From Bacteroidota bacterium (GTDB lineage: Bacteria > Bacteroidota > Ignavibacteria > Kapaibacteriales > UBA961), in contig JAFDZU010000060.1 in NCBI GenBank assembly GCA_018266765.1, positions 1 to 38,281 on the forward strand: a stretch of 38,281 nt of DNA, given 5' to 3'. The notes below the pieces were generated by a model that was given only the letters and a program-made list of their open reading frames with translations, ran no database searches and was not told the DNA's origin. Positions 3,435-7,033 of this stretch are shown piece after piece (within the stretch, counting starts at the first letter, position 1; each line of letters starts with the position of its first letter). The translations under genes and the position numbers were made by a program.

Positions 3435-5003
3435 ATGGAACATTCAAAAGGTAAAATTCTTTGGATTGACGACGAAATTGAACTTCTGAAACCACATATA
3501 ATTCTACTCACTCAACGCGGTTATACCGTTGAAACCGCTTCAAATGGCGATGATGCACTTGTATTAGCAACCGAAAAAAACTACGATTTATTCTTCCTTG
3601 ATGAATCAATGCTTGGTATGAGTGGCTTAGAAACGCTGTCTCGTTTGAAGGATATTGATTCGTCGAAACCCATTGTCATGGTTACTAAAAATGAAGCTGA
3701 AAGCGTGATGGAAGACGCAATCGGACGGAAAATTGACGATTATCTCACCAAACCTGTCAACCCTGCACAAATATTAGCCGCGTGTAAGAAATTTCTCGAA
3801 TCCAAGAAGATTGCCCAAGGAAAATTCACAAAAGATTACACCCAAGGTTTCAATGATATTACACGGAGGTTATATGGATATATGGATTGGAATGAATGGC
3901 TCGAAGTCTATCAAAAATTAGTGGGTTGGAGCATGGATTTAGACCTTCATCCCGAGCTTGGTTTTGGCGAAACACTCTCTACGCAATGGCGTGAATGCAA
4001 TGCCGCTTTCGGGCGATTTGTCGAGGATAATTACTTGGATTGGATAGACGGCGCGCCTGAAAATACACCGCTGCTGTCGCCACATATAGTAGATAAACAC
4101 GTACTTCCGAAATTATCGAACGGCAAACCCACATTTTTCTTTGTAATTGACTGTATGCGACTTGACCAATGGCTTGTGATGGAAGAACTTATCAAGCCGT
4201 ATTTTACTGTTCAGAAAGACTATTACACTTCTATTTTGCCGACGGCAACACCATATGCACGAAATTCTATTTTTGCAGGACTGTATCCTTCGGAAATTAA
4301 AAAGCATTATCCGCAATATGGCCCCAACGAAAGCGAAAACGAGCACAGCCAAAATGCACACGAAAAAGAATTACTTGCTTCGTTGCTCAAACGTCGGAGA
4401 ATTACACTTAAGAATGATTTATCGTATATTAAAATAATTGATACGGATTTTGGCAAGAAGATTGAGAATGATATTTTGCGATATTCAAAAAATCATCTGA
4501 CGGCAATTGTGGTTAATGCAGTTGATATGATTGCACACTCACGTTCTGATTATCCGATTTTGAAAGAAATTGCGCCGGATGAAAGTGCGTATCGAACCCT
4601 GACAAAAAGTTGGTTTCAGCATTCAAGTTTCTTCGGAATGCTAAAAACACTTTCGACTATTAAGGATATAAATATAGTAATTACGACCGATCACGGTTCT
4701 GTGCGTTGCTTGCATGCCGTTCGTGCTTTGGGCGATAGAGAAACATCATCATGCTTGCGATTTAAGCATGGTAAAAATGTCAAAACTGAAGCAAAGAATG
4801 CTATGTTTATTAAAAACCCCGAGGATTATAAATTGCCGTTGAATGGTGTTTCGACGAATTATATAATTGCTAAAGAAGATTTTTATTTTGTGTATCCGAC
4901 GGATTATCACCATTATGTTCAGCGTTACCGCGATAGTTTTCAGCATGGGGGAATCTCAATGGAAGAAATGATTTTGCCGATAATTACGCTTGAAACGAAG
5001 TAA
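3435..5003 (+). CDS. porX: PorX: response regulator with PglZ domain, T9SS regulator
   Basis: This 522-residue protein matches the PorX architecture and usual length. Residues 1-125 are a CheY-like receiver with the acidic pair D12/D13, phospho-acceptor D56 (FFLDESM), T84 and K106 (LTKPVNP). Residues ~130-220 are a helical linker. Residues ~230-522 are a PglZ domain of the alkaline-phosphatase superfamily, with candidate metal or active-site residues D239 (FFFVIDCMR), T270/T272 (ILPTATPYAR), N361/D364/H368, D419/H420 (TTDHGS) and H504 (FQHGG). In Porphyromonas and Flavobacterium, PorX works with the kinase PorY and the sigma factor SigP to control T9SS genes, and its PglZ domain is a zinc-dependent phosphodiesterase. 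Neither PorY nor SigP is in this window. The start is the only good ATG before the receiver; no strong Shine-Dalgarno is visible. Confidence 0.93.
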   Translation: MEHSKGKILWIDDEIELLKPHIILLTQRGYTVETASNGDDALVLATEKNYDLFFLDESMLGMSGLETLSRLKDIDSSKPIVMVTKNEAESVMEDAIGRKIDDYLTKPVNPAQILAACKKFLESKKIAQGKFTKDYTQGFNDITRRLYGYMDWNEWLEVYQKLVGWSMDLDLHPELGFGETLSTQWRECNAAFGRFVEDNYLDWIDGAPENTPLLSPHIVDKHVLPKLSNGKPTFFFVIDCMRLDQWLVMEELIKPYFTVQKDYYTSILPTATPYARNSIFAGLYPSEIKKHYPQYGPNESENEHSQNAHEKELLASLLKRRRITLKNDLSYIKIIDTDFGKKIENDILRYSKNHLTAIVVNAVDMIAHSRSDYPILKEIAPDESAYRTLTKSWFQHSSFFGMLKTLSTIKDINIVITTDHGSVRCLHAVRALGDRETSSCLRFKHGKNVKTEAKNAMFIKNPEDYKLPLNGVSTNYIIAKEDFYFVYPTDYHHYVQRYRDSFQHGGISMEEMILPIITLETK

Positions 5004-5587: not shown

Positions 5588-7033
5588 ATGATTGATACTC
5601 ACGCACATATAGATTCGGAACAATTCGATGACGACCGCGCAGAAATGCTCGAACGTGCGTGGGCGGCGGGAGTCGAAGCAATCATCATTCCGGCAATTGC
5701 TCCTTCGGGATTTGAAAAATTGCAAGCAATCGTCGAATCGGACAAACGCATATTTCGTGGTGTAGGAATTCATCCGCATAATGCAACCGAAGCAACCGAC
5801 GAAATTCTTGAACAAATAGAACAAGATGCGACTTCTAAACGTGTAGTGGCCATCGGTGAAATCGGATTGGATTATTACTATGATTTTGCTCCGAAAAATC
5901 TCCAAAAAGAAATATTTCGCAAACAATTGCGTATAGCTAAACGGCACAAGCTTCCGGTGATTATTCATAATCGAGAATCAGACGACGATATTCTTTCTAT
6001 TCTTGATGATGAACAAGACGGCAGTTTAGAATTTGTACTTCATTGTTTTTCAAGCTCTTCCGAAGTTTTGGAACGTGCTTTAGAACTTGGAGCACATATT
6101 TCTTTCACAGGTAATATTACTTATAAAAAATCAACGCTTGCGGATGTACTATCTCGCACGCCAATCGAACGAATTATGATAGAAACTGATTCTCCGTATA
6201 TGACTCCTGTGCCGAACCGTGGCAAGCGAAATGAGCCGTCTTTTGTTGGCTTCGTAGCACAAAAAATAGCTGATATTCACACTCTTACTATCGAAAAGGT
6301 ACTTTCAATGACTTCTCAAACTGCACGAAATTTTTTCCGTTTGTCTCTTGGTATCACTTTTGCTTCAATTCTTACTGTTGCAATGTCAAGTGCCTCATTT
6401 GCACAAAGAGAACGAGATAACAGAGAAACAGATATAGAGGAAGAAGTAGAAGTTGTCAATCCATATTCGCGGACGTTCGGTCTTGGGGTAATGATGGGTA
6501 CGAATACAGTCGTAGAATCTATTGAATGTATAGCCGACGGAAAACGCCAAAGTCGAAGCTATGAAGGTATTCTTCTCTATGGATTGGCATTGGAATACTG
6601 CCTTACTGATCATGTTCAATTTGAAGGTTCGTATGTGTATTCCGTTAATAATAAAATAGTTGATGAAAAGACGTGGCCGACTCCCAATACTCATCAGTTT
6701 ATTACTCTCTCAGCACGTTTTGTGGCAAATCCTCGTAAGCCGATTTGTTTCTTTGCCGCCGTTGGAAGCTCTATAATATTAAATCGAATTTTTGATACAC
6801 ATACGACTCAGAATTCATTCAATTTCGGCTTAGGATTATATGGAAATATTAACACGAGTTTTGGTATTCTTGTTCCAACAGCAGAATTAAAATTTGATTT
6901 TCCTTTTTCGTCGAATCAATATCCCGACTTAAAATGTGGAACAAGTCTGGAGTACCCGAATGGACTGCCGGCTAACATTAGCAGGTTTTATTCTCTAGTC
7001 CGTTTTGGTGTTCAGTGGTATCCTAAATTTTGA
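5588..7033 (+). CDS. tatD: TatD-family metal-dependent DNase fused in frame to an outer-membrane beta-barrel domain
   Basis: Residues 1-252 form a complete TatD hydrolase (TIM barrel, normal length ~255) with metal ligands H5 and H7 (DTHAHID), E91 (GEIGLDYYYDF), H127 (IIHNRE), H152 (VLHCFSS) and D201 (ETDSPYM), ending in the usual TARNFFRL. The frame does not stop. It runs into a hydrophobic stretch ending SSASFA (residue 272) and then ~209 residues that look like a small outer-membrane barrel: alternating hydrophobic strands, many aromatics and a final FGVQWYPKF typical of barrel C-termini. M241 (6308) starts a near-perfect signal peptide whose n-region is the TatD C-terminal helix. The locus may therefore encode two proteins from one frame, a cytoplasmic TatD(-barrel) and a secreted barrel. 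A lost stop codon or an assembly error is the alternative. Confidence 0.85.
   Translation: MIDTHAHIDSEQFDDDRAEMLERAWAAGVEAIIIPAIAPSGFEKLQAIVESDKRIFRGVGIHPHNATEATDEILEQIEQDATSKRVVAIGEIGLDYYYDFAPKNLQKEIFRKQLRIAKRHKLPVIIHNRESDDDILSILDDEQDGSLEFVLHCFSSSSEVLERALELGAHISFTGNITYKKSTLADVLSRTPIERIMIETDSPYMTPVPNRGKRNEPSFVGFVAQKIADIHTLTIEKVLSMTSQTARNFFRLSLGITFASILTVAMSSASFAQRERDNRETDIEEEVEVVNPYSRTFGLGVMMGTNTVVESIECIADGKRQSRSYEGILLYGLALEYCLTDHVQFEGSYVYSVNNKIVDEKTWPTPNTHQFITLSARFVANPRKPICFFAAVGSSIILNRIFDTHTTQNSFNFGLGLYGNINTSFGILVPTAELKFDFPFSSNQYPDLKCGTSLEYPNGLPANISRFYSLVRFGVQWYPKF
6293..6310 (+). promoter_or_regulatory. Candidate internal ribosome binding site and ATG for the secreted barrel
   Basis: GAAAAGG at 6293-6299 lies eight bases before the in-frame ATG at 6308. 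Translation from here would give a 241-residue preprotein with signal peptide MTSQTARNFFRLSLG...SSASFA followed by the barrel domain. The purine-rich run also encodes IEKV of TatD, so it could be coincidental. Confidence 0.4.

Follow-up and report, generated by a model that had tools for sequence, protein, structure and literature searches.

The Bradyrhizobium fbcH gene encodes a cytochrome b/c1 polyprotein, in which a single ORF carries an internal signal peptide and cleavage yields two proteins. To our knowledge, fbcH has no internal start and both of its products function in a single complex. In-frame overlapping ORFs that give two polypeptides are also a known kind of arrangement. For phage endolysins, a single gene was shown experimentally to give two polypeptides from two in-frame ORFs ending at one stop, the short ORF being translated from an internal start that has a ribosome-binding site of its own; there the short product belongs to the same enzyme, and several short chains assemble with the long one (PMC9430671). 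In Salmonella, alternative in-frame starts yield N-terminal proteoforms of SsaQ/SpaO, ClpB, OmpX and PagC, and such internal starts can alter localisation; each short form is a truncated version of the full protein, and those of OmpX and PagC lose the signal peptide (PMC11005335).

The TatD gene analyzed here shares with fbcH a single bacterial ORF and an internal signal peptide, with an internal start proposed in addition. It differs from the endolysin genes in that the short product would be an exported barrel with no relation to the enzyme, its signal peptide starting as the last helix of TatD, and from Salmonella OmpX and PagC in that the short form would gain a signal peptide. Open-licence papers were searched, including for Kapabacteria TatD and for TatD-barrel fusions, and contained no TatD in such an arrangement and no case in which an internal start makes the final helix of a cytoplasmic enzyme serve as signal peptide for an outer-membrane protein unrelated to it.

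The window is the whole 38,281-nucleotide stretch analyzed (contig JAFDZU010000060.1 of assembly GCA_018266765.1). Within it, 481 codons are open in frame on the forward strand at positions 5588–7033, and the features assigned to this frame are listed in Table 1.

Table 1. Features of the TatD-barrel frame, in window coordinates.
Feature	Position	Strand	Basis
TatD nuclease domain, aa 1–251, no terminal stop codon	5588..6340	+	Pfam/NCBIfam, invariant ligands, AlphaFold2 pLDDT >90, TM 0.95
Weak Shine-Dalgarno-like GAAAAGG (AAGG core), 8 nt 5′ of the internal ATG	6293..6299	+	Sequence, codon-selection tests
In-frame internal ATG (M241), where the barrel preprotein is proposed to start	6308..6310	+	ATG enrichment in fused genes
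Predicted signal peptide M241–A272, predicted cleavage between A272 and Q273	6308..6403	+	Core position, charge, cleavage-like site, AlphaFold2 helix 252–271
Linker, partly acidic, low confidence	6404..6475	+	pLDDT <60; acid-rich in relatives
8-stranded outer-membrane-type β-barrel, aa 297–481	6476..7030	+	AlphaFold2, Foldseek, OMP_b-brl in 11/38 members
TGA stop codon, common to both proposed products	7031..7033	+	Sequence

Residues 1–251 are, as judged from the sequence, a complete and intact TatD nuclease. Pfam TatD_DNase (PF01026) covers aa 2–251 (1.4e-78, 264 bits against a cut-off of 27), TIGR00010 covers aa 1–251 above its cut-off (259.6 against 206 bits), the metal ligands H5, H7, E91, H127, H152 and D201 are invariant across 38 relatives, and in Foldseek the TatD part matched the solved TatDs 6l25 and 2gzx with a TM of 0.95. 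The initial annotation had described a complete TatD with all ligands and the usual end point, and these results agree with it: TatD proteins usually end at about aa 251–252, where the window ORF has no stop. An NCBIfam search found no radical SAM domain (TIGR04038) after TatD in the window protein. Searching the whole ORF against families at their cut-offs named the TatD part and left the barrel part unnamed, and the barrel is therefore easily overlooked in annotation.

Past the TatD end, the frame continues, as the initial annotation had also reported, into a signal peptide and a barrel: a 20-residue hydrophobic helix (252–271) and a cleavage-like site (SFA/Q) are followed by the linker and the barrel, and the whole 481-aa chain was modelled by AlphaFold2 with a mean pLDDT of 90.8. 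In fused sequences, the median start of the hydrophobic core is 1 residue beyond the end motif of TatD, all 123 examined have a small-x-small site after the core, and 88% carry a net positive charge between the internal ATG and the core. By composition, the window has all three elements, a positive n-region, a hydrophobic core and a small-x-small site, and M241–A272 is predicted to be a Sec-type signal peptide cut by signal peptidase I. Because of the core position, the cleavage-like site and the positive charge, the last helix of TatD appears to be also the n-region of the signal peptide (about 12 residues), a double role proposed at the outset.

The barrel was modelled as eight antiparallel strands that close (aa 297–479), with a mean pLDDT of 92.2 when modelled alone in AlphaFold2, and its Foldseek matches were OmpA, NspA and OmpX. 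Its score against Pfam OMP_b-brl is 15.8 bits, below the cut-off of 28.7, although the family is matched at E ≤ 0.01 in 11 of 38 relatives, and a profile of the barrel gave no significant match to PDB sequences. Since the score lies under the Pfam cut-off, the modelled barrel is likened to OmpA, NspA and OmpX by fold alone and no family membership is assigned; it differs from these 8-stranded barrels in lacking a significant sequence match to any solved structure and in being fused to TatD.

A first search of the window's own genome and 60 relatives gave a TatD match in 61/61, nearly all of them full-length, stop-free fusions. Across the order, a strong match was present in 116 of 123 genomes, one of them split (G651) and one ending before the junction (G637), and the stop-free in-frame junction, for which a search in related genomes had been suggested, was found in about 114 of the 123. 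The seven genomes without a strong match hold fragments, other TatD relatives or nothing, likely through assembly gaps. Because the same stop-free junction occurs order-wide, it is neither chance nor an assembly error, and reading through from TatD to the barrel in frame 5588–7033 is confirmed as genuine, neither chance nor sequencing error. In 294 genomes of the class, a profile of the junction and barrel matched essentially only in frame with TatD; these matches fell in the order and family f13, with weak ones in family f19. In the remainder of the class, TatD either stands alone or is linked to a radical SAM domain (TIGR04038), and in the rest of the phylum it is mostly single (255–300 aa). 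On a tree of 143 TatD domains, with many forks unresolved, the fused state requires 2 changes, including the G651 split. A related-locus search returned mostly ordinary TatDs and three named fused genomes; a named fused member is 'Ignavibacteriae bacterium HGW-Ignavibacteriae-4' (NCBI phylum Ignavibacteriota).

Other members of the class carry other additions. At L054–L061, L079 and L080 (families f18, f28, f20 and others) a radical SAM domain is fused in frame, joining TatD near the point where the order has the signal peptide and barrel. TIGR04038 (tatD_link_rSAM) thus resembles the present case in class and in joining a second domain to the TatD end, and differs in that this domain is a radical SAM enzyme domain without a signal peptide; judging from these sequences, the class has attached different domains to the C-terminal end of TatD. 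Family f19 (L050–L053, L255–L260) has proteins of about 590–615 aa consisting of TatD, a signal peptide, a long charged linker, probably a coiled-coil, and a divergent barrel.

In the window, positions 3435–5003 encode a response regulator with a PglZ-like domain, resembling PorX by eye; TsaE and the fused gene lie downstream of it. This PorX-like/TsaE neighbourhood occurs only in family f1; elsewhere dnaX lies upstream and upp downstream, and gene neighbourhoods, considered as a clue to barrel function, gave no envelope link.

The split genome, G651, separates the two parts into two genes (L313 5566–6318 and L314 2186–2971). Its TatD ends in NAMHFFDVK followed by a stop, between Prx and upp with dnaX beyond; in other families, dnaX and upp recur near the fused gene. 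Its barrel is a separate 251-aa ORF on a different contig and begins MLRSQYGKQSCAVIRSAQYFLLVLALFLSTLSWSIAQ, which looks like an ordinary signal peptide; this ORF now sits before a glycosyltransferase gene. The TatD tree places G651 inside the fused clade, so the split is a secondary fission. Separate genes in relatives had been named by the initial annotation as counterevidence to its reading, and this one genome has them, but on the tree they represent a later split. The split indicates that TatD and the barrel can serve as separate proteins.

For analysis of the internal start, codon positions were counted back from the TatD end, which places M241 at -10. An ATG within codons -19 to -3 is present in 115/125 fused genes versus 23/90 unfused TatD genes, and at -10 itself in 64/125 versus 3/90. 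Fused lineages without ATG at -10 mostly carry one at -11, -12 or -18 (table 4/60 versus 51/10). No ATG in -19 to -3 was found in family f6 (6 sequences) or in L066, L052, L259 and L237. Family f6 (L042, L068, L225, L228, L229, L246) is fused with the internal ATG gone; there the internal start has apparently been lost, leaving possibly a polyprotein only or a non-ATG start, and in the other four sequences a non-ATG start may be conceivable.

The strongest support for an internal start comes from synonymous codon choice, counted with one sequence per 75% cluster and with expectations from each gene's own codon usage. In genes with ATG at -10, GAG encodes the -14 Glu in 31 of 34 clusters versus 7.6–8.8 expected (z 9–10), and 15 other conserved Glu columns show no comparable preference (z -2.0 to 2.8). 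Followed by a Val codon (GTN), GAG gives GAGGT, 8 nt 5′ of the ATG, and GAGGT is the usual form of the homologous site in relatives, where the window has GAAAAGG. In genes with ATG at -18, GAG is preferred instead at -22 (17/20 versus 9.2 expected), with no preference at -14 (4/11 versus 6.3 expected); in unfused TatDs, GAG at -14 is slightly in excess (z 2.0). Within the same genes, an SD-like 4-mer precedes 81 of 115 internal ATGs versus 63 of 886 other in-frame ATGs, and an SD-like motif precedes 79% of internal starts versus 12% of TatD's own starts. Compared with synonymous shuffles, fused genes have stronger SD pairing (p 2.5e-5) and weaker local structure (p 1e-5) at the site, and unfused genes have neither. 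A purine- or A-rich element upstream of the internal ATG gave no signal, and groups with ATG at -11 and -4 have little SD. On tree-independent pairs, ATG versus SD gave p of about 1 with 9 pairs, too few for power, and pairs for fused state versus internal ATG were likewise too few. Because of this shortage, the codon evidence can be taken as independent only insofar as synonymous sites are saturated, as the flat control Glu columns indicate.

The initial annotation had pointed to GAAAAGG before the internal ATG, and the motif is indeed present 8 nt upstream; only its AAGG (K237 = AAG) matches, however, and the congeners L002 and L003 lack this, having AAAG. The putative internal ribosome-binding site is thus weak in the window's genus. 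SD use is also low in other genes of the window genome (17% versus 8% in the control). An anti-SD 16S tail is present in the order; of 41 genomes searched with an exact pattern, 8 had it, and misses may reflect the strict pattern or missing rRNA. Taken over the order, the selection tests argue for an internal start with a ribosome-binding site and a shared stop, weak in the window.

We strongly infer, from selection, initiation at the internal ATG, and consider it probable that the frame is two in-frame overlapping genes with one shared stop, in which the barrel comes from an internal start and TatD exists only as a fusion. Ribosomes would also start at the ATG in the last TatD helix (M241 in the window), usually aided by an SD motif (GAGGT or GGAG) within TatD codons. 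The product would have an N-terminal Sec signal peptide, be cut after A272, and be placed in the outer membrane as a barrel of about 23 kDa. Starting at 5588 would give the 481-aa chain, whose nuclease part would fold in the cytoplasm. With somewhat lower confidence, this long product may insert through its internal signal peptide, which would act as a signal anchor in the Sec translocon; cleavage by signal peptidase is probable and would leave TatD held at the inner membrane through the signal-peptide helix on its C-terminus. TatD would be made only as a fusion because the barrel start lies upstream of the TatD end in the same frame, and a stop of its own would truncate the barrel. This point goes beyond the initial annotation, whose proposal of one frame giving two proteins for two compartments is supported by the order-wide fusion, the ATG enrichment, the GAG/GGAG selection and the split genome. 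The long product may also supply barrel, given that family f6 remains fused without an internal ATG. Only tentatively do we combine all of these steps, so that one frame would yield an outer-membrane protein and an inner-membrane-tethered TatD by internal initiation and signal-peptidase cleavage, with a shared helix and an order-wide ratchet forcing the nuclease to be membrane-fused.

A single 481-aa chain, cut at its signal anchor into inner-membrane-anchored TatD and barrel with the internal ATG irrelevant, would be compatible with the cleavage-like sites in all fused sequences, with the persistence of the fusion in family f6 and a few others without an internal ATG, and with the lack of a stop after TatD throughout the order, G651 excepted. 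It is unlikely, since it leaves unexplained the enrichment of ATG, its replacement at other positions and the GAG preference that tracks it. The same tracking bears on whether the SD-like motif is a ribosome pause that helps signal-peptide recognition, as its place just 5′ of the signal-peptide codons might suggest, rather than a start site: the motif keeps start-codon spacing (8–9 nt), and in lineages with ATG at -18 it has shifted 5′ together with the ATG, although the signal peptide has not moved; we regard a pause as very improbable.

A trace less credible again is one bifunctional protein, with TatD and barrel as a covalent unit such as an envelope-tied nuclease. The fusion has been kept across very deep divergence, as such a unit would be, but G651 encodes each part by a gene of its own, the two lying on different contigs; TatD and barrel belong in different compartments; and the usual neighbours (dnaX, Prx, upp) include no envelope genes. 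An assembly or sequencing error that removed a stop or shifted the frame was rejected as vanishingly improbable, with an identical open junction in more than 110 genomes.

Internal in-frame starts usually lead to shorter versions of the same protein. In two overlapping genes of the kind proposed here, what the internal start appears to yield is another protein, destined for another compartment; this is conserved over the order, and selection on synonymous codons for the ribosome-binding site is visible. The arrangement would be self-locking, since a stop after TatD would end the barrel frame too, and relocation of the barrel would be the sole way out; it would offer a clear natural example of a ratchet formed by in-frame overlap, from which one escape (G651) is documented, and it raises the question of how a nuclease without its own stop codon is released or tethered.
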